This document shows positions 7,145-22,258 of a stretch of DNA of 32,817 nt, one piece after another. The notes below the pieces were generated by a model, which was not told where the DNA came from, searched no databases, and worked only from the letters and a program-made list of their open reading frames with translations. Positions within the stretch are counted from its first letter, which is position 1; each line of letters starts with the position of its first letter. Both the position numbers and the translations under genes were made by a program. This stretch comes from Chthonomonadaceae bacterium (lineage in GTDB: Bacteria > Armatimonadota > Chthonomonadetes > Chthonomonadales > Chthonomonadaceae): contig DAIDKH010000049.1 of NCBI GenBank assembly GCA_027450145.1, forward strand, positions 1-32,817. Direction: 5' to 3'.

Positions 7145-7173
7145 AGTATATCTGACAGGAGATGTTTTGTCTA
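7145..7173 (-). promoter_or_regulatory. Sigma70-type promoter of ftsK-deoC-rbsK
   Basis: On the minus strand TAGACA (7173-7168) and TATACT (7150-7145) are separated by exactly 17 bases. Both hexamers are one mismatch from consensus (TTGACA, TATAAT). The start site would fall about 15 bases before the ftsK GTG, leaving a short leader with the ribosome site. Confidence 0.65.
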
Positions 7174-7425
7174 CGTGTTTTCTAAAGTACACGAGCAGGA
7201 TGATTGAACGACGTAGAAGCAGACCGTTCATTACCAGGTATTATCGGCAGCCGTTAACGTTCTACGACAGCCACCCGGCGCATTCGCTAAAACGAATGAA
7301 CGTAGCGCGAATCGCTTAGCGGATGTGACTAACGTTGGGGGAAAACCTAAGTCCATGATTTATCCCCATGACAGGGATGCATTCGCTATTGAAGGTAACG
7401 GGATGAGTTATAGAGATAGATACCT
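7174..7425. other. Gene-free stretch upstream of ftsK
   Basis: No credible coding potential on either strand. The only structure I see is a small hairpin, CATTCG (7281-7286) with CGAATG (7293-7298). It probably holds only the upstream part of the ftsK control region and the gap after the lipoprotein terminator. Confidence 0.5.
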
Positions 7426-7466
7426 AAAAAGGGCTCGATATGTCACCTCAGTGCATAATCGAGCCC
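7426..7466 (-). terminator. Rho-independent terminator of the lipoprotein pair
   Basis: A 9-bp perfect stem, GGGCTCGAT (7431-7439) with ATCGAGCCC (7458-7466), is followed on the minus strand by TTTTT (7430-7426). It lies 24 bases past the stop of the Ig-like lipoprotein gene. Confidence 0.85.
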
Positions 7467-7490
7467 CTAATGAAGCACGCGTTAGAGTAA

Positions 7491-8129
7491 CTAGTTCACA
7501 TTAACTACCGCACCACCCGTGCCTACCGTCACAGTAGCCGAAGCGGTTTCTGTGGGATCATATTGACTAGTCGCAGTTACGGTGTAGGTTCCAGCAACAG
7601 CAGGCGCCGTGTAGAGCCCCGTGGATGATATGGAGCCACCCGCGGCAGGCGAAACGCTCCACGTCACGGACGTATTTGTAATGCCCACAATGTTAGCAGT
7701 GAACTGCTGAGTACCGTTGGGTGCTACTTGAACAGTTAGCGGCGTTACATCGAAAGTTATAGTAGTGACAGGAAACGTAATAGACTTTCCTATGGTTACG
7801 TCGGTAACGGTAATGTTTGACGTGCCGGGAGCCACACCGGTAAGCAAGCCCGTAGAACTAACGGTAACCGCCTCTGTGTTACTGCTTGAGAACGTGATTG
7901 TATCCGTGCTGATATTAACACCGATACCCGCGGCTGTTTCGCCACTGATACTAAGTTGTACGCTTTTGCCCTCTAGTATAGTAGGTGCCACAAAGCTGGA
8001 CTTTAACGTAGAGACCGGCGCTGTTATTCCGGCAGAACTACCGCCCCCGCCGCCGCAACCCGCGAGTGGGAGAGCAGCGAGAGTCCCCAGTAACATCAAT
8101 CCCGCAAACTTTACATAGATGCCCTTCAT
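7491..8129 (-). CDS. Lipoprotein with bacterial Ig-like domains
   Basis: About 212 residues. The ATG at 8129 has AGGAGC 8 bases upstream; the longer frame to 8186 lacks this. Residues 1-24 form a lipoprotein signal ending in the lipobox LAGC (Cys24), followed by a Gly/Ser tether, so the mature protein should be lipid-anchored outside the inner membrane. The rest is two beta-sandwich repeats of bacterial Ig-like type (BIG2-like: ILEGKSVQLSISG..., VSSTGLLTGVAPGTSNITVT, then VAPNGTQQFTANIVG..., ISSTGLYTAPAVAGTYTVTA). Such domains serve adhesion or as spacers; no enzyme motif is present. It lies 58 bases downstream of the NHL lipoprotein, probably in the same transcript, and shares its Ig-like content, suggesting both work at the cell surface. 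Confidence 0.75.
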   Translation of the reverse strand: MKGIYVKFAGLMLLGTLAALPLAGCGGGGGSSAGITAPVSTLKSSFVAPTILEGKSVQLSISGETAAGIGVNISTDTITFSSSNTEAVTVSSTGLLTGVAPGTSNITVTDVTIGKSITFPVTTITFDVTPLTVQVAPNGTQQFTANIVGITNTSVTWSVSPAAGGSISSTGLYTAPAVAGTYTVTATSQYDPTETASATVTVGTGGAVVNVN

Positions 8130-8187
8130 AATAAAATGCTCCTGTTTGGCAGATGCCTGATGTCTTAAAGATCGGAGTTGCCTCAAT

Positions 8188-9777
8188 TTAAACAGGCAGC
8201 GCTACGGGAGTAGTAATGCCGTTTATTCCTTCAAACTGGTTAGGACCAGTTCCAAAAGAGCCTAACGTTAGCAAGTTAGTTCCGTTGAGGTCGTCCATGC
8301 GTACCAGGCGGTTGTTGCCAGTGTCACTTACATAAATGTAACCGGCATTGTCTGCCCTAACATCCCACGGGTCTGAAAGCAGCGTACCGAATTTCGTACC
8401 ATAAACAGTTTCATTAGCTCCCGTCATGTCATCTATGCGAACAATGCGGTTATTATTCGTGTCAGCAATGTAGATTCTATTGGCAAGATCCACTGTCATG
8501 CCATGGGGGTCGTTAAGTTCACCTGGGTTTGCACCGGTTCCAAGTGTTCCATAGGTGACCCATCCTGCCCCTGTCATATCGTTGATTCGGACGATACGAT
8601 TATTTAATGCATCGCAAATATAAATTCGGTTACTGGTGTCAACAACCACTTTGAATGGGTTAGTAAACTGCCCGACCCCAGATCCACCGGTACCAAACGA
8701 CACGAAGTTCGTACCAGACAGGTCATCGACTCTAACGATTCGGTTGTTGTATGTATCAGCCACGTAGATGCGGCCGGAGCCGTCCAGCGCGATGCTTTGT
8801 GGGTTGTGGAACTGATTGGTGCCAGAGCCAAGCGTTCCAAATACCTGTGCGTTCAACCCGGAAATATTGCTCATCTTGACAATTCGGTGCTGTTTGGTAT
8901 CCGCAACATAGATGTTAAGCGCCGGATCAACGGCAACTCCAGTTGGTCCGAATGGTGCGGTTACCACAGAATTCCCTGTGAATGCCTGGTACCCAGCACC
9001 AGACATATTGGTAACCAGGGTTACCCTCCCATTAACATAGTCAGTCATTAAGAGCGGGCTGGCGGCCGTGGTGAGCACGGTAATCTCAAGCGTGCCCGTA
9101 ACCCCGCTTTCGTTGTCAGTAGCGCTGATGGTGGCGACACCACCAGTTACGCCCGAGATGAGTCCCGAGCTATTAACTCCGGCATTGGCGCTGTTGGATG
9201 ACCATTGAATATGCGAAGGAGTAAGAAGTACAGAATTTCCGGATGCATCCACGCCAGTGGCAGTTGCCTGCACATACACGCCAGTATTTAGACTAGCCGC
9301 TCCGGTAGCAAGCGAAATCGTCAAGGATTTCACGGTAGAGGCCATGGTGAAGCTCACATTGGCTGTTGCACCTGCGGTGATTGTAACTGTAGATGATCCG
9401 GCAGAATCAGCAACACCTGTACCGTCTGTAGACGGATAGGCCGCGGCGCCAACCTGCAGATTGCCTGGTGCGAGACCTGTGAAAGTCGCAGTAGATGTGC
9501 TGGCAGTGGTGGGCCGTGCCACCACTTGCGAGGCCACCTTGGTTGTACCGCTCATCAGCGTGATCACAACGCTGTTAGCTGCGGCGGGTATCAGCCTGCT
9601 CCCAGTGGGCCATGCAATGTTAACCACGGCTTTGCCTGTTCCCCGGCCGGTTACGGCTGAAGAGCCCGTACCGCAGCCCGCAATTGCATCACTTACGGTA
9701 GCGAGCAGCATTCCACCCCCCAGCAGGCGCAGCAGTTGGCGCCGAGGTATCGGCACCGACCCAAATCTATCACTCAT
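8188..9777 (-). CDS. Tat-type lipoprotein with Ig-like domain and NHL-repeat propeller
   Basis: About 529 residues. The ATG at 9777 has GAGGAGA 8 bases upstream, so the frame extending to 9894 is not used. The N-terminus has a twin-arginine motif (PRRQLLRLLGG) and then a lipobox (AIAGC), indicating Tat export and lipid anchoring. A Thr/Ser/Ala-rich region and one BIG2-like Ig domain (…LISGVTGGVATISATD…) follow. From about residue 255 to the end there are at least five NHL repeats with the signature IYVADTxxxRIVRxDD (IYVADTKQHRIVKM, IYVADTYNNRIVRV, IYICDALNNRIVRI, IYIADTNNNRIVRI, IYVSDTGNNRLVRM), which should close a six-bladed propeller. NHL propellers bind ligands or act as lyases; I see no catalytic signature. 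It is first in the pair with the downstream Ig-like lipoprotein. Confidence 0.8.
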   Translation of the reverse strand: MSDRFGSVPIPRRQLLRLLGGGMLLATVSDAIAGCGTGSSAVTGRGTGKAVVNIAWPTGSRLIPAAANSVVITLMSGTTKVASQVVARPTTASTSTATFTGLAPGNLQVGAAAYPSTDGTGVADSAGSSTVTITAGATANVSFTMASTVKSLTISLATGAASLNTGVYVQATATGVDASGNSVLLTPSHIQWSSNSANAGVNSSGLISGVTGGVATISATDNESGVTGTLEITVLTTAASPLLMTDYVNGRVTLVTNMSGAGYQAFTGNSVVTAPFGPTGVAVDPALNIYVADTKQHRIVKMSNISGLNAQVFGTLGSGTNQFHNPQSIALDGSGRIYVADTYNNRIVRVDDLSGTNFVSFGTGGSGVGQFTNPFKVVVDTSNRIYICDALNNRIVRINDMTGAGWVTYGTLGTGANPGELNDPHGMTVDLANRIYIADTNNNRIVRIDDMTGANETVYGTKFGTLLSDPWDVRADNAGYIYVSDTGNNRLVRMDDLNGTNLLTLGSFGTGPNQFEGINGITTPVALPV

Positions 9778-9815
9778 TACACTTTCTCCTCTAGTGAAAA
9801 TAAGACCAACTGGCA

Positions 9816-9876
9816 GAATGCGAGCGCTCGTCCTTGAGCATCTCCGGGGGCGCTGAGTACCGCAAGCGCCGCATTC
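9816..9876 (-). promoter_or_regulatory. Structured leader upstream of the NHL lipoprotein gene
   Basis: The sequence can fold as a three-way junction. A 7-bp closing stem (9816-9822 with 9870-9876) encloses a 5-bp hairpin GCGCT/AGCGC (9850-9854 with 9865-9869) and a 4-bp hairpin GCTC/GAGC with a 6-base loop (9826-9829 with 9836-9839). It ends 39 bases before the start codon. I do not recognise a known riboswitch class. The region is GC-rich, so chance pairing is possible. Confidence 0.35.
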
Positions 9877-10205
9877 GCACATTTTAAGCCGCAAAACATG
9901 TCATCCAGCATGGGGGGCATAACCGGGAACGGCGGCATATCCACCCGCCTTCAGTACTCCAGGCACTGCCTGTTGTAGCGCAACTACCATCATCCAGGAT
10001 GAAGCGGCGGTAGTTCATTTCCTGATTGCTTAATTGCGTAGCAGAAAATGTGCCAACACGATAAATTTACCGGATGAATACAAAGGACTAGTGAATTTAC
10101 GGGTGGTTGAGGTTCTTAAAGGAATCTGCGTACACTAAGGTGAAATTCCTTCTCACTGGTTAGGCTACTTTGCACGAAAATGCCCCGTCTGTCTGTTGTA
10201 GATAA
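9877..10205. other. Gene-free divergent intergenic region
   Basis: No supported gene. It contains a 13-base palindrome CAGGCA-C-TGCCTG (9960-9972), which could be an operator for either divergent unit. The minus-strand promoter of the NHL gene must lie here, but I cannot pick it out. Confidence 0.4.
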
Positions 10206-10211
10206 TATAAT
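10206..10211 (+). promoter_or_regulatory. Perfect -10 box upstream of the lamin-tail-like gene
   Basis: TATAAT matches the consensus exactly and would start transcription about 55 bases before the ATG at 10273. No good -35 hexamer sits 16-18 bases upstream, so it may need an activator or be fortuitous. Confidence 0.4.
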
Positions 10212-10272
10212 TGCCAGACTGAGTCGCAGCGGGCGACCTGAGTAACCACAGTTTCTTTTGGAGGCGAACTGA

Positions 10273-10671
10273 ATGCTACGAATAGCAGAGATTAAGCACT
10301 CACAGTCGGTTCGGGGTGAGTATATCGTTCTGCAAAATACAGGGCTCGTGGCCATTAACTTACGTGGCTGGGCCGTGTGCTCTGAGGCTCTCATGGATGG
10401 TACCATCAGGGATATCGCCGCTAGCCTCTACGTGTTTCAAACGGATGCCGTTGTAAAGCCCTACACCAAAGTGGTACTTTTTACTGGAAGTGGCGAAGAT
10501 GGCTGGCGGGAAACAACGGACGGCAGACAGGCTTATTGCGCCTACTGGAATCGCGAAACACCAGTTTGGCACGGCGCGCGAGCCGTCAATGTTTTGCACG
10601 TTGCCGGGACCCGATCGGTCGTCGAAAATGCCGTCCCCGTGTGTGATTCCCTTTCGACCGCATCTGCGTAG
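10273..10671 (+). CDS. Small stand-alone lamin-tail-like domain protein
   Basis: 132 residues; ATG preceded by GGAGG at 8 bases. The pattern resembles the lamin-tail domain (LTD, PF00932), an Ig-like beta-sandwich. It has GEYIVLQNTGLVAINLRGWAV near residues 16-36, then an aromatic strand (SLYVFQ), a PYTKVVLFTGSGEDGW segment matching the family's 'gets a halo of charge, then hTGxG' region, a YWNRETPVWH strand near 92, and ARAVNVLHVAGTRSV at the end. No signal peptide or membrane segment is visible, which is unusual because bacterial LTDs are generally parts of exported proteins. It precedes the secreted hydrolase gene by 131 bases on the same strand, and co-transcription is possible. The assignment rests on pattern recognition only. 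Confidence 0.6.
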   Translation: MLRIAEIKHSQSVRGEYIVLQNTGLVAINLRGWAVCSEALMDGTIRDIAASLYVFQTDAVVKPYTKVVLFTGSGEDGWRETTDGRQAYCAYWNRETPVWHGARAVNVLHVAGTRSVVENAVPVCDSLSTASA

Positions 10672-10802
10672 TCACTTCACGGATTGTTGATGTTGCTTGC
10701 TCCCCAGGTTCAAAGACTTGACCCTAAGATCTAAGGGGATCGGTATGCGTGCCATGAGCACAAATGCTGGGGTTTGTTTCAATTTCTTCAGGAGAGAATA
10801 CT

Positions 10803-13268
10803 TTGGTCAAATTGTTCCTGCCTGCTGCGATACTTATTGCTTCAGCGGGCGCGGCCGGTGCCCAACCTGCTGCCACCTCTCTCATCTCCAACTCTAAGGC
10901 TTTGACCTTACCTGCGGTTGGCAGATATTCACGCGCTCCAATCCATCGGGATCCTGTTGAGGCATCTATTATCAACGGTAGTTTTCAGCCACCCGCAGCA
11001 GGGAAAACAGTCACTACTGCCACTGGTAAAGTGGTAAAATGGGCGCCGACGAGCGCAACAGCCCAAGGAGATTACAAAGTAGATCGAGGCGGCTACACCG
11101 ATATCGTGATTGATCGAACCACTGGGGCACCCGCAATACTAAACGCTGGTGGTGACTCGTTGGTCTATGTCAACGGCGTACTATTACCCGGTGATGTGTA
11201 CGGCAACGGGCAGCTGCATCTTCCTATCTATCTACGCCCCGGCAGAAACGACCTTCTGTTTCTGTGCATCAGTCGCACTCTCTCGGTACACATCACTTCC
11301 CCTCGCGCCCCACAACAGCTATCTACAAGTGATCTTACACTCCCAGACCTACATGCAGGAGTGTATAACAAAGTGCTCGGCGCTATTCCTGTGCTGAACT
11401 CACAAAGAAAAACCGTAACCGGCTGCACGATAACCGTATCAGGACCCGGGATAAGCGCAGAAACCACCGAGGTACCACCACTTCTGCCGCTAGAGGGCAG
11501 AAAATGTGCGTTCAGGGCGGGTATACGTCCCGCGATGACGGCAAAATCAGTGATGCTCACAGTTTCGCTACGGCACAACGGCAAGCTGCTCGACACCACC
11601 CATTTTCCGCTGGCAGTGCGGTCGGCAGGAGAGACGTACAAGCAAACGTTTATAAGCAATATTGATGGAAGCGTACAGTACTTCGCAGTAAATCCCGCCC
11701 ACCCACTGCCGGGCGCCAAACGCCCCCCTGCACTGGTACTCACTCTGCATGGTGCAGGTGTTGAAGCGATTGGGCAGGTGAACGCGTACGAGTCCAAATC
11801 GTGGCTCACGCTCGTTGGGCCGACAAACCGCCGACCATTTGGCTTCGACTGGGAAGACTGGGGCCGGCTAGATGCGCTGGAAGTACTTCACATCGCTCAA
11901 CACACGATGGGTTTAGACAACAGCCGGACGTATCTTGCAGGTCACTCGATGGGTGGACACGGCACATGGCAGCTCGGCGTACTCTACCCTGACCGCTTTG
12001 CAGCAATTGGTCCGAGTGCGGCCTGGATTAGTTTCGCAACATATGCTGGAATGAAACCACCTGTAAATCCTACACCGGTGCAGAATATGTTCGACATCGC
12101 TGGCAACACCAGTAACACGTTGCTCATGGGCCACAATTACGCTCAGGAAGGCATCTACATTCTGCAAGGCCTTGCTGACGACAACGTTCCACCAACTGAA
12201 GCCAAACACATGGTCAAGTACCTATCGACATTTCACAAGGACTTCCGTTATCATTTTCAGCCTGGAGCAAACCACTGGTGGGATGTGTCCCCGGAACCAG
12301 GTGCTGACTGTGTAGACTACAGGCCAATGTATCAGTTCTTCGCTCACCATGTGCTTGCACCGGCGGCCTCTATGCGGCATATTGACTTTACTACTACCAA
12401 TCCCGGTGTAACTGCGCGCGATTTCTGGATGACAATCGAACAACAGGCCCGTCCAATGCTAGTGAGTAATGTGAACGTGGTGTTTGATCCCGGCCAACGA
12501 CTATTTCACGGCACCACGACAAACGTGGCCGTTATGAAATTCGATCTGCGACAGCTGCTCGTTCCCGGAGATCCAATTAACCTCAAAATCGACAATAATG
12601 TCGCGATAACGGTTAAATGGCCCAAAACTGGTATTTTGTGGCTTGAAAATACGCTCTCTGGCTGGCAGGAGATAAATGCGCTGCCGGCCACTGCAAAAAA
12701 CCCGTTACGAAATGGTCCCTTCAAACTGGCGTTCAACCACAATTTCATAATGGTGTATGGTACTCACGGTACACCCGACGAGAACTCGTGGGCAATGCAA
12801 AAGGCACGCTTGGATGCAGAAACCTTCTGGTACCGCGGAAATGGATCGGTGACCATCATTCCGGACACGGAGTTCAATGCCAAGGCAAATATCGACCAGA
12901 GTGTCATCCTGTATGGTAACAGCGTCACTAACAGCGCTTGGAAGGCACTCTTGGGAAGCAGCCCGGTTCAAATCACCGAAGGAAGTGCGAGTATTGGCTC
13001 GCACACATTTACGGGAAGCGACTTGGCCAGTATGTTTCTACAGCCACGGCCAGGCAGCGCCATAGCGTGTGTGGCTGCGATTTCCGGCACCGGCCTTACG
13101 GGAATGGAAGTAACCAATAGGCTTCCGATATTCATGTCCGGCACAGGTTGGCCCGATTGCACATTGCTCTCTTCCCACGTTCTATCCGCTGGTACCGCAG
13201 GTGTTCTGGCAGCTGGCTTCTTTGGAAACGACTGGAGCGTCAGCAACGGAGAATTTGCGTTTCATTAG
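10803..13268 (+). CDS. Secreted alpha/beta-hydrolase, prolyl-oligopeptidase-like
   Basis: About 821 residues from a TTG start at 10803, chosen because AGGAGAG lies 6-7 bases upstream and the product then begins with a standard signal peptide (VKLFLPAAILIASAGAAGAQ). The ATG at 10764 would put 13 polar residues before it and lacks a ribosome site. Residues to about 300 are beta-rich, with a galactose-binding-like feel (LPIYLRPGRNDLLFLC). The alpha/beta-hydrolase core spans roughly 305-510: ALVLTLHGAG (oxyanion strand), GHSMGGHGTW with the nucleophile near S382, LADDNVP with the acid near 458, and GANHWWD with the histidine near 490. The triad is therefore complete. About 300 C-terminal residues are beta-rich and of unknown role. 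The family includes peptidases and esterases, and the substrate cannot be told. Confidence 0.75.
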   Translation: MVKLFLPAAILIASAGAAGAQPAATSLISNSKALTLPAVGRYSRAPIHRDPVEASIINGSFQPPAAGKTVTTATGKVVKWAPTSATAQGDYKVDRGGYTDIVIDRTTGAPAILNAGGDSLVYVNGVLLPGDVYGNGQLHLPIYLRPGRNDLLFLCISRTLSVHITSPRAPQQLSTSDLTLPDLHAGVYNKVLGAIPVLNSQRKTVTGCTITVSGPGISAETTEVPPLLPLEGRKCAFRAGIRPAMTAKSVMLTVSLRHNGKLLDTTHFPLAVRSAGETYKQTFISNIDGSVQYFAVNPAHPLPGAKRPPALVLTLHGAGVEAIGQVNAYESKSWLTLVGPTNRRPFGFDWEDWGRLDALEVLHIAQHTMGLDNSRTYLAGHSMGGHGTWQLGVLYPDRFAAIGPSAAWISFATYAGMKPPVNPTPVQNMFDIAGNTSNTLLMGHNYAQEGIYILQGLADDNVPPTEAKHMVKYLSTFHKDFRYHFQPGANHWWDVSPEPGADCVDYRPMYQFFAHHVLAPAASMRHIDFTTTNPGVTARDFWMTIEQQARPMLVSNVNVVFDPGQRLFHGTTTNVAVMKFDLRQLLVPGDPINLKIDNNVAITVKWPKTGILWLENTLSGWQEINALPATAKNPLRNGPFKLAFNHNFIMVYGTHGTPDENSWAMQKARLDAETFWYRGNGSVTIIPDTEFNAKANIDQSVILYGNSVTNSAWKALLGSSPVQITEGSASIGSHTFTGSDLASMFLQPRPGSAIACVAAISGTGLTGMEVTNRLPIFMSGTGWPDCTLLSSHVLSAGTAGVLAAGFFGNDWSVSNGEFAFH

Positions 13269-13297
13269 GATACGGTAACTATATCAGCGATCACTAT

Positions 13298-13352
13298 GGC
13301 CCGTTGAGAGCGCCTGTTGCACCACCAACAGGTCCTTCAACGGGCCTTTCTT
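13298..13352 (+). terminator. Strong nested terminator after the hydrolase gene
   Basis: A 10-bp outer stem, GGCCCGTTGA (13298-13307) with TCAACGGGCC (13337-13346), encloses a second hairpin, CCTGTTG (13313-13319) with CAACAGG (13326-13332). TTTCTT follows immediately. It lies 30 bases past the stop codon. Confidence 0.85.
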
Positions 13353-13418
13353 CGCCCCGCGATACACCTCATTTCGCCTCGTACGAAACAATTTGACCGA
13401 CCTCGCTCAAATCCTGGT

Positions 13419-13467
13419 TTTCGTTTTGTTTTGTTTGCGCGCATATTCTTTCGTTTTGTGCTATAAG
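13419..13467 (+). promoter_or_regulatory. Direct repeats and possible -10 box before the E1 gene
   Basis: The 11-base sequence TTTCGTTTTGT occurs at 13419-13429 and again at 13449-13459, exactly 30 bases apart (about three helical turns). It is followed by TATAAG (13462-13467), a plausible -10 element about 33 bases before the start codon. The surrounding stretch is strongly T-rich on this strand. Repeats in helical phase next to a promoter suggest a regulator site, which is inferred. Confidence 0.35.
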
Positions 13468-13499
13468 GTATTTAGCCTTATCCAATTCAGGAGCCTTTG

Positions 13500-15998
13500 A
13501 TGCCAAAATCTCTACCCATAAAACCGGAACTAGTGCGCTCTAGCGGCAAGTTGGAATTTAGCCCAATTCCTCTGAATAGTTACAGCAAAACAATGGGCGA
13601 GGAACTTGCCAACTACAGCACAACAGAACTGGTAAGTATCTACCACGACATGGCGTGTATTCGTGCGTTTGAATCGATGCTTGACGAAGTGAAGAAGCAA
13701 GGGAAGTACCGCGAGATTGAATACAACCATAAGGGCCCGGCGCACCTATCCATCGGTCAGGAGGCTAGCGCAGTCGGGCAGAGCTTCTTACTGGATATTA
13801 ATGATCACATTTTTGGAAGCCACAGGAGTCATGGTGAGATCCTTGCCAAGGGCCTTTCGGCTATCAACAAGCTGTCCGATGATCAGCTTATGTCGGTCAT
13901 GGAAAACTATATGGACGGCGCCGCACTACGCGCATTGGAACAACCGGTGCCGGGCACAAATGAAACACACACACCAAAGGATGTAAAAAGCCTTGCCATT
14001 GAGTTTCTTCTCTACGGAGCGCTAGCAGAGATATTCGGTCGGGAGAACGGGTTCAATCGAGGTATGGGAGGGTCAATGCACGCCTTCTTCGCTCCGTTTG
14101 GCATCTTCCCGAACAACGCCCTGGTAGGAGGATCAGCGGACATTTCCGTCGGTGCTGCACTGTTTAAGCGCATCAACCGTCGCAATGGCGTCGTGATTTG
14201 CAACATTGGTGATGCTTCCGCTTCCTGTGGTCCTACATGGGAGGCACTATGCTTTGCAACAATGGAGCAATTCAAGACTCTCTTTGACGAAGCCCACAGA
14301 GGCGGACTGCCGCTGATCATGAACTTCGTTAACAACTTCTACGGCATGGGCGGTCAGCCAGTCGGTGAAACTGGTGGATTTGGTATACTCGCTCGCCTGG
14401 GAGCTGGCCTAACTGCCGATCAGATGCATGCTGAGCGCGTAGATGGATACAACCCACTCGCGGTCATCGATGCAATTCGCCGCAAACGGGCGATCCTCCT
14501 GGAAGGCAACGGTCCGGTACTGTTAGATACTGTCACATACAGATTTAGCGGCCACTCTCCTTCCGATGCCTCAAGCTATCGAGACCGTACGGAGGTTGAA
14601 GCCTGGCAAAATGTCGATTCACTGCATACTTACAAGTCTGACCTCTTGGCAAACTCTGTTGCAACTACCGAGCAGCTAACTGTGATCGCTGATTCCCTCG
14701 ATAGCGCGATTTTGCGAGCCTATCGTAGAGCTATCGATCTCGAGCTTTCACCCAGGGCAAACCTGTATAAATCCGGATGCCTCCTAGAGAATACGATGTT
14801 CTCTAACCACGAGGAACTATCTCTGGATGCTAGTGTTAGTCCAGAATTAAGTATTCTTCCCTCTGAAAATCCGCGCGTTCAAAGGCTCGCCTCGCGATCC
14901 CGCTCAGGAATTGATGAGACAGGAGCGACGCTGCCCAAGGCGCGCTGTATTGGCATTCGCGACGCACTGTTTGAAGCGATTTATTACCACTTTCAGAAGG
15001 ATCCTACGCTGGTTGCCTACGGGGAAGAGAATCGAGACTGGGGTGGCGCTTTTGGAGTTTACCAGGGCCTTACTGAGGCTTTGCCATACCACCGATTGTT
15101 CAATAGCCCTATCGCCGAGGCCGCCATCGTCGGTACCGCGGTTGGATACGCTCTGGAAGGCGGTCGCGCATTGGTAGAGCTGATGTACTGCGACTTTCTT
15201 GGTCGTGCGGGTGATGAAGTATTTAACCAGCTGTCAAAATGGCAGTCCATGTCTGGGGGGTTCCTCCGCATGCCGGTTGTGTTGCGCGTATCTGTGGGAA
15301 GCAAATACGGAGCCCAACACAGCCAGGACTGGACCGCTTTGTGCGCTCACATTCCGGGGCTAAAGGTTGTGTTTCCGGCAACACCGTACGATGCGAAGGG
15401 TCTTATGCACTCCGCACTACTAGGCACGGACCCTGTAGTATTCTTTGAGAGCCAACGAATTTACGATCAAACAGAGCTGTTTCACGGGGCACAAGGCGTT
15501 CCTGCTGATTTTTACACGATTCCGTTGGGCGCACCGGATGTAAAACGCCCTGGCAATGACATTACGATCCTTACTGTGGGTGCAACGCTCTACCGTGCTC
15601 TACAGGCGGCAGATATTCTTCGCGACAAGTATGGTATTTCTGCCGAAGTAATCGATGCGCGTTCCCTGGTTCCGTTCGACTATGCGCCTGTACTTTCAAG
15701 TGTAGCAAAAACTGGTCGCATCGTGCTGGCTAGCGATGCGTGCGAGCGCGGATCAATTCTACATACGATGGCGTCAAGGATAAGCCAACTTGCCTTCGAT
15801 GATCTAGACGCTCCGCCGGTTGTGGTTGGCGCCCGAAATTGGATAACGCCACCCGACGAGGTTGAGGACGCCTTTTTCCCGTTTGCTAAAGACATACTCT
15901 CGGCCATACATCAGCATATTCTTCCTCTACCTGGTTTCGATGCAGTTTCGGCGGACGACCGCGCAGAGATTGCAAGACGCGCAGCAGCAGGTATCTAG
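13500..15998 (+). CDS. Fused alpha-beta E1 component of a 2-oxoacid dehydrogenase-type TPP enzyme
   Basis: About 832 residues from the ATG at 13500, which has AGGAG 7 bases upstream; a TTG directly before it is also possible. The N-terminal half (about 40-440) is an E1-alpha domain: [14 protein letters not shown], then the TPP/Mg segment [10 protein letters not shown] (near 237) ending in VNNFYGMGG (near 277), and [10 protein letters not shown]. The C-terminal half (about 480-830) is E1-beta: [55 protein letters not shown]. Separate alpha and beta chains are thus joined in one polypeptide. These enzymes decarboxylate 2-oxoacids and pass the acyl group to a lipoyl E2. No E2 or E3 gene is nearby, and the usual GDG of the TPP motif reads GDA. 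Substrate is unknown (branched-chain 2-oxoacid, pyruvate or acetoin all possible). Confidence 0.85.
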
Positions 15999-16178: not shown

Positions 16179-16231
16179 ACAAGCCTGTACACTATTGTTT
16201 CTCAATCTACCTTCTCCTGGGAGTGCCGATC

Positions 16232-19200
16232 ATGAAATGCTGCCTCGCAGTCGCATTAATCGCCAGCACAATGTTCTATACGGGTCGGGTAACCGCTCAG
16301 ACCGTGCATTATGATGGGCCACACGGCGTTGCCATCTCCATTAATGTAGTGACCGCAGAGAAGAAGCGCGCAATAGGTTTCAATGTGTACACTGGGAGAA
16401 AACTGGAAGCAGCAGTACGATTCACATCGCGAGGCCTAATTTCATGCCGTAATCCTAGGGTGAAGCGTTCTAATCAAGGTATTACAATCTCGTTTGCAAG
16501 GCTATCTGCCAGCCCAAATGCTGGGTTCGAACTAAAGAACAGCCGCTTGGACATTAGTGCAAGGCGCGGTCACTACCCCAAGGTTGACTTTTGGCTTCAT
16601 GTGCTCAACTTTGACAAGGTCACCTGGCAGAATAGAGTGGGAAAACAACCATTTCACTTTCTTAAAATTGAGATGCCGAACGCTCAGGTATGGCAGCAGG
16701 GCGGTTGGCTTAACGCAACACCTCTTGCCGACATGTTTCCTCTACTACTCGACGTTCACATTGGCACACCGGAAATCTCAGGCTACCATTACAACCGCGA
16801 GTGGAGTAACACGACACCCATTTCAGCGTTACCGATCCCAGTTATTGGTCTCTGGAATCCCAGTACGGGACACTATGCCGCCTGGGACTTCATGGAGAAC
16901 CGGTTAACGTCCAACTCAGAGCGAAACATTGCCGTTGGGTATTGCAATCGCCTCATACTCCCAGAGTCTCAAACAGAGGTGCTGCCTCAGTCAGAAACTC
17001 TGCCACCGATTACGCCGACTGACTGGAAAACTCAATCAACCTCAACGCAGGTAGACCAACATAACTCGTCGAGGTTCATCGCAATGGTTTTTCCCTACGG
17101 CGGCATTGGCTATCAGCATTGCGTTTATCCTGGTATCAACTTTACTCTTCAGGCTTCGGCAAGGCTCGTGTTCACTAGTTCGTTACCCTCCACCACTGAT
17201 CCCAATAGCTTCCTATGGTCGACGTATTGGCACGACCCAACGATACATGACCGCCTGCCTAGAGCCCCACGTGCCGCAGATTTAGGCTTTGTGGGCAACA
17301 GTTCCCACCTCGCAACTATACCAAACGCACCGGTAGGATCCATTTTGGGCGGTATCGGAGTATTTGGCGTTAGGGGTACTACCGCAATCGGCGGATGGGG
17401 CCGCCAGGATGAGGGTGCTGTTGCAGTAGCCGTAGCCAACAAAGACACTGCCGCACTTGTAGCCATGCGCAAAGAAGCGAATGATCTTGCCGCATCGGCA
17501 GTGCATTTCAAAAGTGGAGGGCTTAACTGCGTCTATTGGAAACAGCCCCTCACTGGTCAATGGGTTACAAAGTGGGGAGGTAAGCCCGCTGGTACGCTGC
17601 ACAACTCGGCAGGCTTCACGGCAGCGCGGCTACTGCTCGATCTGGCATATTACGATCACGACACACAGTACCTTCCGGTCGTGGACGGGGTAATGAATTG
17701 GGCAAAGGGGATAGTTTGGACACGCGGTGAATTTCCAGACGTACCATCTTCGCCGTTTGCTATAGGCGGTACTACAGCGGTAAGCTTTCTACTAGATTAC
17801 TACTCGCTCTATCACAACGATGGGCAACGTCGCGATAATGCGTTGCAAGCACTAAAGCTTGCACGGTCGTTCGCTTATCGGTACATGGTCATGTGGGCAG
17901 GCGACGGAAGTAGAACAGACCGGTTGGATAGCGCCTTTCTGTGGGAGCCTAATTCCGGACGCGATTGGACTGGAGCTGCATGTTCGAACGAGGTTATCTG
18001 GGATTTAGATATGGTGGCCGAGACCGCCGTCTACACCGGCGATCCCGTACTTCGTTGGGCACTCAATGGCACACTTTCGCGATGGCATAGACTGTATCAG
18101 AATGTCTACCGACCGAATATCGAAGACTATAGCTCCGCCGATTTTGCTGAAGGGTACGGCCTGGCCCCCGGCAATATCTACGGATACCCCGGCGGCCGCG
18201 CTGCTTATGGATTCGGCGGGCCTTTGAAACTTCTTGATCCCGTTGGCAGTTCCATCGCTCGCGTGATTGCAGGTCCTCGTGCCGCTTTGGTATTTGACCG
18301 TAATGTACACACAGTGATTCTTTCCGCCTATCGATGGACAAGTGCCGGGCAATTTGCATTCAAACTTCAGGGCATTCCTGGGACCGCAGACGTAACGGTA
18401 ACCGCTCCTTTTGCGAATATCGGTAACGAACCTGTTGCTCTTGAGAACGGGGTATACCGTAAGGCACCATTAGTTACGCGCAATTGCGACAGCCAGTGGA
18501 CGATCGTAATTCGCGGTGTAAAAACCAACGAATGGGTTGTGGTTGGATCACCCAACATCGCGGAATCGACACCGGAGCCTTTTGCGGTATCACTTACAGA
18601 ACATACCAGTCCCACACCGCCCGAGGCGTGCGCGCCATTCGTGCCTTTGGTCCTAACGCACGACACCAGATTAAAAACCGAGTGGCAAAACAGTAGCTTT
18701 GCAGGTCTCACAGCAGGGCTACGCTGGATTTGGTCAGTACCGTTTATCATTAGCAATGGCATCGGTGCAACTGAGTCACATACAATGCTTCCGGATCCAA
18801 CGACTGAAAACCTGCGCGCCTGTTTCATCTTGTACGCTCCGGCCACCACTAAATCTGTACCTGAACCACTTATGAGTAATGGAATGCCCTCAAAGCCTTT
18901 TTGGCCCAGCCCAGCGCTAGCGTGGCGCGGTTGGCCAAGCTGTATCTCTTCGCAGTTGCGAGAGATAGGATACCTGCTTCCCAACCACGCACAGCTTGTA
19001 GGAATAAAGCCAAACGGGACGAAGATTGTTGCGGCTAGTGGCTTAACCCGCGTTTCCCCAAATACACGAGACCAGATTACTGCTCGACTCCGCAGTGGAG
19101 CCAAAGAACTCGCTGCGATTGATCACTACAACGAGCAGATTGAGCTGTTGCGAATAGAAGCATCTTCTATTCCGCCAGATAAAATCGCATTATTCGAGCC

Positions 19201-19891
19201 AGTCCAGCAGAATAACCCTGCTTATACCCTCTTGACACAGGGCCTGCTCTTAACGAAGTCGGATACATTATCACCGCAGCAGATCTGCTCGCCCAAGATA
19301 TTTAATGCAAAGCGGTATCCCGTAGCCATATACCTGGATGGCGAAGATTACGATGTGGGAGACGAAACGCCTGCATCAATTTTGAAGGCCATACGAACCT
19401 ACTTGCGCGCAGGCGGTACACTCGTACTAATGGCTCACCTTCCATTCCCGTTTTATTACCCTGTAGATGGTAGCGGAACCGAATTACCCGGGGACCCCCT
19501 ATTACCAAAGTTGGGGCTCCCGCTATACAATGCTATAGAAGCGGCGCCTGCCAATCAACCGACCATCCAACTATTCCAAAATGAAACCGTTCTAACGGGT
19601 TTACCACCGGCTTTTGATTACCCCCAGGGAGACCCTCGCCTACGAAGCATCAACTCGGCGCAAGTACCAACAGGGTCAAAGTACCAGCCCATATACGAGG
19701 TCAAAGGAGCCAGAGGCACCAATTACGGCGACGCTGCAGGACTTCTAACACTTGCTGCCCAACCTGGAAGGCCCCCGGGCCGCATTCTCTACATTAGCGC
19801 TAAAATAATAGACGATCCGGTGCATGGAACGCAGGTTATCTGCTCTGCTGTAAAGTGGATTGCACATGTCGTACAAAGGATAAACAGATGA
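16232..19891 (+). CDS. Large secreted multidomain protein of unknown function
   Basis: About 1219 residues. The ATG at 16232 has GGGAG 8 bases upstream and begins a signal peptide (MKCCLAVALIASTMFYTG…VTAQ). I do not recognise the protein as a whole. Residues about 25-370 look beta-rich. About 400-640 is helical with Trp/Tyr-rich turns (GFTAARLLLDLAYYDHD, DYYSLYHND, GRDWTGAACSNEVIWDLDM), the style of an (alpha/alpha)6 toroid as in many glycoside hydrolases and polysaccharide lyases. About 660-780 is again beta-rich. The last 200 residues (about 1020-1215) resemble a class-I glutamine-amidotransferase-like or ThuA-like fold (YPVAIYLDGEDYDVGDETP, LRAGGTLVLMAHLPFPF). The overlap with a sugar-isomerase gene supports a role in carbohydrate use. 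I cannot point to catalytic residues, so enzyme activity is an inference from fold style only. Confidence 0.7.
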   Translation: MKCCLAVALIASTMFYTGRVTAQTVHYDGPHGVAISINVVTAEKKRAIGFNVYTGRKLEAAVRFTSRGLISCRNPRVKRSNQGITISFARLSASPNAGFELKNSRLDISARRGHYPKVDFWLHVLNFDKVTWQNRVGKQPFHFLKIEMPNAQVWQQGGWLNATPLADMFPLLLDVHIGTPEISGYHYNREWSNTTPISALPIPVIGLWNPSTGHYAAWDFMENRLTSNSERNIAVGYCNRLILPESQTEVLPQSETLPPITPTDWKTQSTSTQVDQHNSSRFIAMVFPYGGIGYQHCVYPGINFTLQASARLVFTSSLPSTTDPNSFLWSTYWHDPTIHDRLPRAPRAADLGFVGNSSHLATIPNAPVGSILGGIGVFGVRGTTAIGGWGRQDEGAVAVAVANKDTAALVAMRKEANDLAASAVHFKSGGLNCVYWKQPLTGQWVTKWGGKPAGTLHNSAGFTAARLLLDLAYYDHDTQYLPVVDGVMNWAKGIVWTRGEFPDVPSSPFAIGGTTAVSFLLDYYSLYHNDGQRRDNALQALKLARSFAYRYMVMWAGDGSRTDRLDSAFLWEPNSGRDWTGAACSNEVIWDLDMVAETAVYTGDPVLRWALNGTLSRWHRLYQNVYRPNIEDYSSADFAEGYGLAPGNIYGYPGGRAAYGFGGPLKLLDPVGSSIARVIAGPRAALVFDRNVHTVILSAYRWTSAGQFAFKLQGIPGTADVTVTAPFANIGNEPVALENGVYRKAPLVTRNCDSQWTIVIRGVKTNEWVVVGSPNIAESTPEPFAVSLTEHTSPTPPEACAPFVPLVLTHDTRLKTEWQNSSFAGLTAGLRWIWSVPFIISNGIGATESHTMLPDPTTENLRACFILYAPATTKSVPEPLMSNGMPSKPFWPSPALAWRGWPSCISSQLREIGYLLPNHAQLVGIKPNGTKIVAASGLTRVSPNTRDQITARLRSGAKELAAIDHYNEQIELLRIEASSIPPDKIALFEPVQQNNPAYTLLTQGLLLTKSDTLSPQQICSPKIFNAKRYPVAIYLDGEDYDVGDETPASILKAIRTYLRAGGTLVLMAHLPFPFYYPVDGSGTELPGDPLLPKLGLPLYNAIEAAPANQPTIQLFQNETVLTGLPPAFDYPQGDPRLRSINSAQVPTGSKYQPIYEVKGARGTNYGDAAGLLTLAAQPGRPPGRILYISAKIIDDPVHGTQVICSAVKWIAHVVQRINR

Positions 19892-20676
19892 ACCCAGGCT
19901 TCCTCGCAGCTCAGATGTACACGTTGAGGGAACACACCAAAACGGCCGATAGCTTTGCAGATGCACTTGAACGGGTCGCTGCGATTGGATACAACGCAGT
20001 TCAAATATCTGCTGTAGGAGCCATGGCAGGTGAAACTCCGGCTGTAACTGCAGGCCAGGCAAAAAAGCTGCTCGATAATAACGGTTTGTCATGTATCGCG
20101 ACGCACCGCGATTGGGATCGTCTAGAGTCGCAGACAGAGGCCGAGATTGAATTTCATCAGCAGTTGGGTTGTTCGTTTATCGCAATAGGCAGCTTGCCAA
20201 ATCGATATCGCGCTGATGGCGCAACAGGATATCGCCGCTTCGTTCACGATGCCCAGCCGGTGATAGCAAAACTGAAAGCCGCAGGCATTATCTTCGGGTA
20301 TCATAATCACGCCCACGAGTTTCAGCGAATCGAGGGCTCACACAACTGCCTGTTCGACATCTTCATTGACGCCGGATCTGATCTAGCACTGGAAGTTGAC
20401 GTTTATTGGGCGGCACATGCGGGCCTTAATCCTGAAAGACTTATGGAGCGCCTCAGCGGACGGGTGCCAGTCATCCATGTGAAGGATCGTGAAGTAGTGG
20501 CAGAAGGTCCTGTGATGGCTCCAATAGGTGAAGGCAATCTAGATTGGCCGCATCTCATTCCCTGTTGTTTACGCTCGGGGGTGAAGTGGTTCGCGGTGGA
20601 ACAGGACGAATACCGCCGCGATCCCTTTGACTGCTTGAAGTCGAGTTTCCAATACCTGAAGGAACTACCTGTTTAA
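19888..20676 (+). CDS. Sugar phosphate isomerase/epimerase-type TIM barrel (AP endonuclease 2 family)
   Basis: About 262 residues, typical of the xylose isomerase-like TIM barrel family (PF01261). The ATG overlaps the stop of the upstream gene by 4 bases (ATGA), with AAAGGA upstream, indicating translational coupling. Visible family marks are the opening strand AAQMYTLREHTK, GYNAVQISAVG near residue 33-43, GYHNHAHEF near 137, the acidic EVDVYWAAHAG strand, VIHVKDRE near 195, and WFAVEQDEY near the end. His, Asp and Glu side chains at these strand ends usually bind a divalent metal. There is no signal peptide, so it is cytoplasmic. It may process a sugar released by the exported partner. The exact reaction is not predictable, since the family spans isomerases, epimerases and dehydratases. 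Confidence 0.85.
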   Translation: MNPGFLAAQMYTLREHTKTADSFADALERVAAIGYNAVQISAVGAMAGETPAVTAGQAKKLLDNNGLSCIATHRDWDRLESQTEAEIEFHQQLGCSFIAIGSLPNRYRADGATGYRRFVHDAQPVIAKLKAAGIIFGYHNHAHEFQRIEGSHNCLFDIFIDAGSDLALEVDVYWAAHAGLNPERLMERLSGRVPVIHVKDREVVAEGPVMAPIGEGNLDWPHLIPCCLRSGVKWFAVEQDEYRRDPFDCLKSSFQYLKELPV

Positions 20677-21243: not shown

Positions 21244-21975
21244 TTACTTACCGCTGCCAGATGCCTGTGTAGTCTTCGGCTTACCTGCAGGCGCGCTGGA
21301 GCCTCCAGATTGGGCCTTCAGCATCGCCTGTAACAGCGGCACGATGCGCGGATAGGACAGAAACACCTTGCCAACGTACAGGTGATACCACTGAGCCTGG
21401 GTGGTAGTGTCACTGTACATACCCTCATTCGCCGGTGAATTTTTCGCGATATCAGCTGCAGCAGCTATTTGTGCGGGAGTAAGAATGTTGGCTATATCGT
21501 TTGATGCCGATGCAATGTTCTGTAAATTCAGCTGCTTCCTATCGGCAACGAACGTATCCATCGCATGTTTCATCCGCGCATCAAAGTCCTTCGGAATGGT
21601 GCCACCGCCATACACGCGCTTCTTCACATCTTTAAGTTCGCTCATGAACGGCGAGAATTGCTTGTCAGTAAGCATGGCTACCTTACGCTCGTAGTCTGCG
21701 GTTAACTGCTCCAGGACGGCGATAGTCCGTCTCAATTGATCGGTCGTAAGATGCAGCGGTGTGATATTTCTACTGCGGTCTATGTCATTAATGTCATTCA
21801 TGAGCAGAAACCGCTGCACTAGAGTGAGGCCCACCGGCGAAGGAGACGACGCGGTTGGTGCTGGCTTGGTAGCCGCCTGGTTAGTACCTCCATTGGCGGC
21901 AGGTTGTTGCGCTATTGCAGCGCTGGTTGAAAATACAACGAGCAAGGCTACACACAGAGACCTACCAGTCAGCAT
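21244..21975 (-). CDS. Exported helical protein of unknown function
   Basis: About 243 residues. Of the two near starts (GTG at 21981, ATG at 21975), the ATG fits better because AAGGAG sits 5 bases before it but would touch the GTG. A signal peptide is clear (LCVALLVVFSTSAAIAQ), followed by an Ala/Pro/Thr-rich linker to about residue 48, a helical core (about 50-215) and a Gly/Ser/Pro-rich tail. The core contains LTTDQLRRTIAVLEQLTADYERKV and ANILTPAQIAAAADI. This 'LTxxQ' style recalls Spy/CpxP-like periplasmic proteins, but the match is loose and I would not assign that family. It has no cysteines in the mature part. Convergent with trxA; divergent from the DinB-like gene. Confidence 0.65.
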   Translation of the reverse strand: MLTGRSLCVALLVVFSTSAAIAQQPAANGGTNQAATKPAPTASSPSPVGLTLVQRFLLMNDINDIDRSRNITPLHLTTDQLRRTIAVLEQLTADYERKVAMLTDKQFSPFMSELKDVKKRVYGGGTIPKDFDARMKHAMDTFVADRKQLNLQNIASASNDIANILTPAQIAAAADIAKNSPANEGMYSDTTTQAQWYHLYVGKVFLSYPRIVPLLQAMLKAQSGGSSAPAGKPKTTQASGSGK

Positions 21976-22258
21976 ATGCACTCCTTAAAGCCGCGAAAAC
22001 TGAAATATGAGTTGTTTAAGAGCAAAACACCTAATTCATTCACAGTATTTGGACGGCCACAACCACCCAATCGTTACAGTGCCCACGTAAAAGTGCACAC
22101 CTATACATATTCTACCCGTCTAACCAGCGCCCGCGGCTGCTACCGAAATGGATTGGTGTGTCGTGTCACGGGGTACAATTGGCAAACGAGTATCCATTCG
22201 TCGCAGTTTTCATGCGAGTTAATCTTAGCATTCGGTCGCGCCACAAGAGGTTCTTCTC

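Follow-up and report, generated by a model that had tools for sequence, protein, structure and literature searches.

The Locus and Its Two Overlapping Genes

The window analyzed here, a stretch of 32,817 nucleotides taken as a whole, is a contig of a 4.14 Mb Chthonomonadaceae genome (G000; Armatimonadota) that is 97% complete. It holds a large gene followed by a smaller partner gene (Table 1). The initial annotation described a 1219-residue ORF overlapping a sugar isomerase/epimerase ORF by 4 bases, and the ATGA overlap is confirmed. The mechanically called large ORF opens at an in-frame GTG at 16223; the ATG was retained as its start, and purine-rich, ribosome-binding-like stretches lie 7-8 bases 5' of the start of both the large and the partner ORF. 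That the large ORF is coding is certain, because a full-length relative at 73-74% identity is found in locus L002 (JAJYCW010000077.1) and ten more relatives at 36-46% identity complete a 12-row alignment (A1), one of them truncated by a contig end. The protein had also been taken to be exported, and this holds for the protein itself and its relatives, with an export signal in all 43 of the 43 distinct relatives whose N-terminus is covered. The test applied to the relatives was crude, asking for an A-x-A-type site together with a hydrophobic stretch; among the controls, 7 of 315 segments from the interior of these proteins passed it, as did 123 of 334 N-termini of other genes at the same loci.

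Table 1. Features of the large gene and its partner in the window, with residue numbers referring to the protein concerned.
Feature	Coordinates	Strand	Remarks
Large secreted protein, 1219 aa, unclassified family	16232..19891	+	ORF, ATG 16232 to TGA 19889-19891
Signal peptide, residues 1-22, VTA/Q site	16232..16297	+	Site read by eye
N-terminal beta-rich region, residues about 25-370	16304..17341	+	Invariant D167, W191, W208, D323; secondary structure inferred
Helical region, residues about 380-655, candidate catalytic core	17369..18196	+	Invariant D503, D558, D563, W579, E587, E640
Second beta-rich region, residues about 655-790, end of N-module	18194..18601	+	
C-module part 1, residues about 801-965, beta-rich	18632..19126	+	
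C-module part 2, residues about 975-1215, possibly GATase1-like (weak evidence)	19154..19876	+	Invariant E1038, Y1076, E1103, R1136, R1138, Y1187
ATGA overlap of large and partner genes	19888..19891	+	Found in all four coupled genomes (three genera)
Partner, 262-aa xylose-isomerase-like TIM barrel related to AtOGE	19888..20676	+	H139, H141, D171, H197, E238 kept

An Unclassified Family in the Armatimonadota

A search with the single protein found relatives in 15 of the 31 genomes of its class, and a profile search extended this to 70 of 291 Armatimonadota genomes (48 of the 194 of good quality), some of them matched in the C-terminal part only; several matches, those in family f16 included, are limited to the last 200-odd residues. 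Relatives are about 1200 aa long in many cases and 1450-1690 aa in others. Relatives were sought within the Armatimonadota and, beyond the phylum, in one narrow contig scan with the window protein alone, in plasmids and in viral contigs; the plasmid collection gave no match, and none of 35 pattern matches in viral contigs was confirmed. The large protein thus belongs to an unclassified, exported family present across the Armatimonadota and is not an orphan.

The view that the protein matches no known family end to end is borne out by searches of Pfam, NCBIfam and the PDB, all of which lacked a significant match. The large protein alone matched no Pfam or NCBIfam family even at E<=1, and the 12 relatives of A1 gave no NCBIfam match and one weak Pfam match each to DUF4350 (0.018) and DUF7589 (0.045). 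Against the PDB, nothing significant was obtained with the single protein, the 12-row full alignment, the 41-row N- and C-module alignments, a 43-row profile of the helical core or a 41-row profile of the C-terminal domain, and two HMM consensus sequences found nothing significant in Pfam or the PDB. The top non-significant PDB matches in the helical region were farnesyltransferase beta (4yde; E 0.16, single protein) and a GH105 protein (4xuv; E 0.73, consensus), both helical toroids and weak hints of an alpha/alpha fold. Titles-level listings of the literature on this family or on new Armatimonadota glycosidase families contained nothing on this protein.

Profile-profile comparison by hhalign with GH88, GH127, MGH1, DUF4350 and ThuA gave probabilities below 12% throughout, in a test in which same-kind controls also failed (<1%). 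The loci passing the length filter for it numbered 12/20 for ThuA, 9/15 for GH88 (30 fetched), 16/30 for GH127, 21/30 for MGH1 and 20/30 for DUF4350. Of the three glycosidase families, GH127 scored highest, at 5.6-7.9%, a value to be read in the light of a test without power; the helical region and the beta region after it also had their strongest, though weak, profile signals with GH127 (P 0.0069 and 0.0044). The helical-toroid glycosidases of the GH127-like, GH88/105-like and MGH1-like types share with the large protein the proposed succession of a helical core and a beta domain; the large protein differs from them in having no significant match and about 370 beta-rich residues ahead of its helical core.

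For the C-terminus, the initial annotation had suggested an amidotransferase/ThuA-like fold, of which the GATase-like part is weakly supported and the ThuA part is not. The C-terminal domain profile had two PDB matches, 2gk3 and 5gsl, at E 0.93 and 1.2, both over the same Y..GG..L stretch, and both are presumably GATase1-like folds. This stretch is common to the C-terminal domain, DUF4350, 2gk3 and the beta-galactosidase 5gsl, at a level that is not significant (P 0.0025 among 35 comparisons, in addition to the E values just given). No Cys or His reaches 90% in the 41-row alignment of the C-module, so that the Cys-His-Glu triad is not conserved and an active class I amidotransferase was rejected. 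ThuA proteins have a class I amidotransferase-like fold. Membership of ThuA (PF06283) was also rejected, with no Pfam ThuA match and hhalign probabilities of 0.4-0.6% in the comparison whose controls failed too. ThuA proteins proper are separate genes in 30 of the 31 class genomes, in contrast to the C-terminal domain of the large protein.

Modules and Invariant Residues

Across 41 N-module sequences, with identities down to 23%, ten residues are invariant among the polar and aromatic ones listed, namely those given for the N-terminal and helical regions in Table 1. The acidic ones (D167, D323, D503, D558, D563, E587, and E640) are invariant in 41/41, and the conserved acidic residues that had been sought in the helical domain are therefore present. 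The C-module residues in Table 1 are likewise invariant across 41 sequences. Between the window protein and its relative in L002, the helical region changes slowest, with dN at 0.116 vs. 0.183-0.218 elsewhere and dS mostly saturated. Structure prediction, also suggested beforehand, was carried out with AlphaFold2 on two sequences for each of the N- and C-modules and gave no usable fold, both models being unusable at mean pLDDT values of 32.4 and 29.6. The order of fold types (beta-rich, helical, and C-terminal GATase-like), as judged from sequence, is plausible.

Some relatives divide the protein or extend it. At locus L087 in genome G061 the N-module and the C-module are separate adjacent genes, at 7163-9490 (775 aa) and at 9727-12318 (863 aa); the latter joins the C-module to CBM9 and also carries a weak 3keto-disac_hyd match. 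In family f16, a gene at L092 (3900-5651) encodes a GH99 domain followed by the C-terminal GATase-like domain of the large-protein family. The separate genes in G061 and the C-terminal domain behind GH99 in f16 together indicate that the protein has two or more modules that can be exchanged, with a boundary near residues 790-800. Among the long forms, Pfam places CBM9 and 3keto-disac_hyd at the end of those in L095 and L103 and has no match for those in L046 and L048.

The Partner Gene

The partner is a Pfam AP_endonuc_2 protein (E 2e-14; 54.4 bits vs. a cut-off of 31.1) whose best solved relative is 8bvk, at E 1.8e-25. 8BVK is AtOGE, an Agrobacterium 3-keto-O-glycoside beta-eliminase in which H132, D163, H189 and, weakly, E233 bind metal and H134 is required (PMC10628242). 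AtOGE residues H132, H134, D163, H189, and E233 correspond to H139, H141, D171, H197, and E238 of the partner, and all five are kept in 15 of 15 partner sequences, one of which is a distant paralogue. This paralogue lies in the genome of the window itself (G000:C2:127723-128445) and is 34% identical. The sequence therefore supports an AtOGE active-site layout in the partner, which does not decide the particular reaction, because a hydratase-type relative and further isomerase-like ones share these residues. The AtOGE operon includes genes for a dehydrogenase and an oxidoreductase as well as another isomerase-like gene (PMC10628242); none of these lies beside the partner in the window. The genome of the window could make 3-keto sugars, as it encodes 31 GFO_IDH_MocA proteins over the cut-off, none of them nearby.

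Conservation of the Gene Pair

Some partner relative is found in all 31 class genomes, and a close partner (>=55% identity) in 15 of them, every one belonging to the 17-genome family; one of the 15, G024, has a partial gene at a contig end, and the region expected to hold its large gene is missing. A close partner together with a full or split large gene occurs in six genomes (G000, G023, G018, G019, G020, and G022), and the two are coupled in four of these (G000, G023, G020, and G022), each with ATGA. The proposed check of adjacency across genomes thus came out positive in four genomes of one clade and negative in G018 and G019, where the two genes are separated by 1.16 Mb or sit on different contigs. 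Another nine genomes of the class carry the partner but no full large protein; one of them, G027, has a divergent 719-aa relative of the large protein on a different contig. Conversely, families f2 and f3 include eight genomes in which a large gene is accompanied only by partner relatives that are <=35% identical. A universal pairing was accordingly rejected, each gene being found elsewhere without the other, and the description of the two genes as a fixed functional pair proved too strong.

A tree built from the large protein places all four coupled copies in one clade with 100/100 support, and the copy of G019 is adjacent to it; the partner tree left the branching unresolved. The coupling therefore arose once and lasted through three genera. 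Downstream of the coupled pair, genes of the thioredoxin type, of an unknown type (c4) and of the VKOR/DsbA type are partly kept, so plain synteny is possible. A 245-aa protein without a Pfam match is encoded at 21244-21981 on the minus strand of the window; its gene is also retained after the partner in G023, G020, and G022 and has a counterpart in G024.

It is quite possible that the coupling is incidental, a single ancestral rearrangement having joined the two genes and synteny having kept both. The restriction to one clade, the uncoupled genes of G018 and G019, the nine genomes with the partner but no full large protein, and the retention of unrelated downstream genes all fit this. Set against it is the exact ATGA, kept across three genera at about 47% large-protein identity, and the fact that the upstream gene varies, being a DNA ligase in G020 and an E1/transketolase gene in the window. 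In addition, the related genome of Chthonomonas calidirosea is termed "seemingly disorganized" in an abstract (PMC4959169), so that pairs retained there may mean more.

Carbohydrate Context

No other carbohydrate-degrading gene was found in the neighborhood of the pair in the window, the closest being genes for a PfkB kinase and a DeoC aldolase, which lie on the opposite strand. On the minus strand, the adjacent ORFs at 7491-8186 and 8188-9894 both contain Big_2 domains, accompanied in the second by NHL repeats; the two may be distinct, or a stop or frameshift may have divided a single gene. Carbohydrate genes do occur beside relatives of the large gene. In genus g15, NPCBM and GH28 are beside one copy and apiosidase and RHGA-epimerase-like genes beside the other, and GH5 and GH95 are near the copies in g16 and G033, respectively. 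These belong to a set of ten neighbor genes picked for recurrence or an operon-like row. Directly upstream of a g15 copy, L036 encodes (11028-13592, minus strand) an 855-aa protein that begins with NPCBM and includes about 690 residues to which Pfam assigns nothing.

An unselected tally drew on 22 loci, so that each genus and copy was represented roughly once; we took two genes of >=150 aa on each side and left out those cut by locus ends. The resulting 77 genes became 76 when one, the family's own C-module, was dropped. Two GH95, one apiosidase and two polysaccharide deacetylases are among the 25 of 107 families listed for these neighbors, compared with no carbohydrate enzymes among the 25 of 115 listed for 80 control genes. 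In this partial comparison the excess is small and there is little enrichment, and a clear carbohydrate neighborhood was rejected as a general rule. Most copies look like single genes, often among housekeeping genes. The domain fusions are better evidence for a role in carbohydrate use than the neighboring genes. The association of relatives with carbohydrate functions that the initial annotation anticipated was found in the CBM9, 3keto-disac_hyd and GH99 fusions and in the apiosidase, GH28, RHGA-epimerase-like, GH5, and GH95 neighbors.

Proposed Function and Alternatives

On balance we favor reading the large protein as a carbohydrate-active enzyme, exported and built of several domains, from an undescribed family, with the partner processing the product taken up in one clade of the Chthonomonas family. 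The export signal, the conservation of the family, its invariant residues and domain fusions, and the coupling with its clade are observed; catalysis, fold, substrate and the joint pathway are what we infer. The large protein would most likely be a glycoside hydrolase or polysaccharide lyase, with an active site in the helical region (D503, D558, D563, E587, and E640) flanked by beta domains, and may be the founding member of an unclassified glycosidase/lyase-type family. Its C-terminal GATase1-like domain, having no amidotransferase triad, would probably be structural or binding. Extracellular cleavage by the helical core is likely but unproven, and the substrate may be a plant-type polysaccharide or glycoside cut outside the cell. 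The imported sugar or glycoside could then become a substrate of the cytoplasmic AtOGE-like partner, which would work either as an isomerase or through elimination/hydration of a 3-keto-glycoside. This joint pathway, from cleavage outside to processing by the partner within, is offered as a hypothesis.

Somewhat unlikely, in our view, is a non-catalytic role for the large protein, as a secreted protein that binds glycans or as a cell-surface scaffold, in which the invariant residues are structural. Such a role would agree with the lack of a catalytic family match in any search, the several beta-rich regions seen by inspection, the CBM9 of relatives and the frequent occurrence as a lone gene. 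However, ten invariant residues, at least six of them acidic, in 41/41 sequences at such low identities fit an active site better, as does the finding that the helical region changes slowest. Helical-toroid proteins serve many chemistries, and this diversity, together with the weak match to farnesyltransferase beta, could suggest that the N-module acts on a non-carbohydrate (e.g., peptide or amide bonds) like other proteins of this kind, but the CBM9, 3keto-disac_hyd, and GH99 fusions make this very unlikely.

Returning to the favored reading of a carbohydrate-active enzyme, a more far-reaching version may also be considered, which we regard as doubtful. The N-module would represent a new glycosidase/lyase family across the Armatimonadota. 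In one clade it would carry out the extracellular step of a two-step breakdown that the AtOGE-like enzyme finishes inside the cell via a 3-keto-sugar, and in g15 it would work with pectin-type enzymes (apiosidase, RHGA-epimerase-like, and GH28).

The Armatimonadota are noted carbohydrate users with few characterized enzymes. Its lack of any Pfam, NCBIfam or PDB relative, its export, its invariant acidic residues, and the joining of members to CBM9 and of the C-terminal domain to GH99 make the large-protein family a good candidate for a new family of carbohydrate-active enzymes. A member is present in the cultivated Chthonomonas calidirosea (G019, 100,834-104,499) of the Chthonomonadaceae, which makes direct testing possible.
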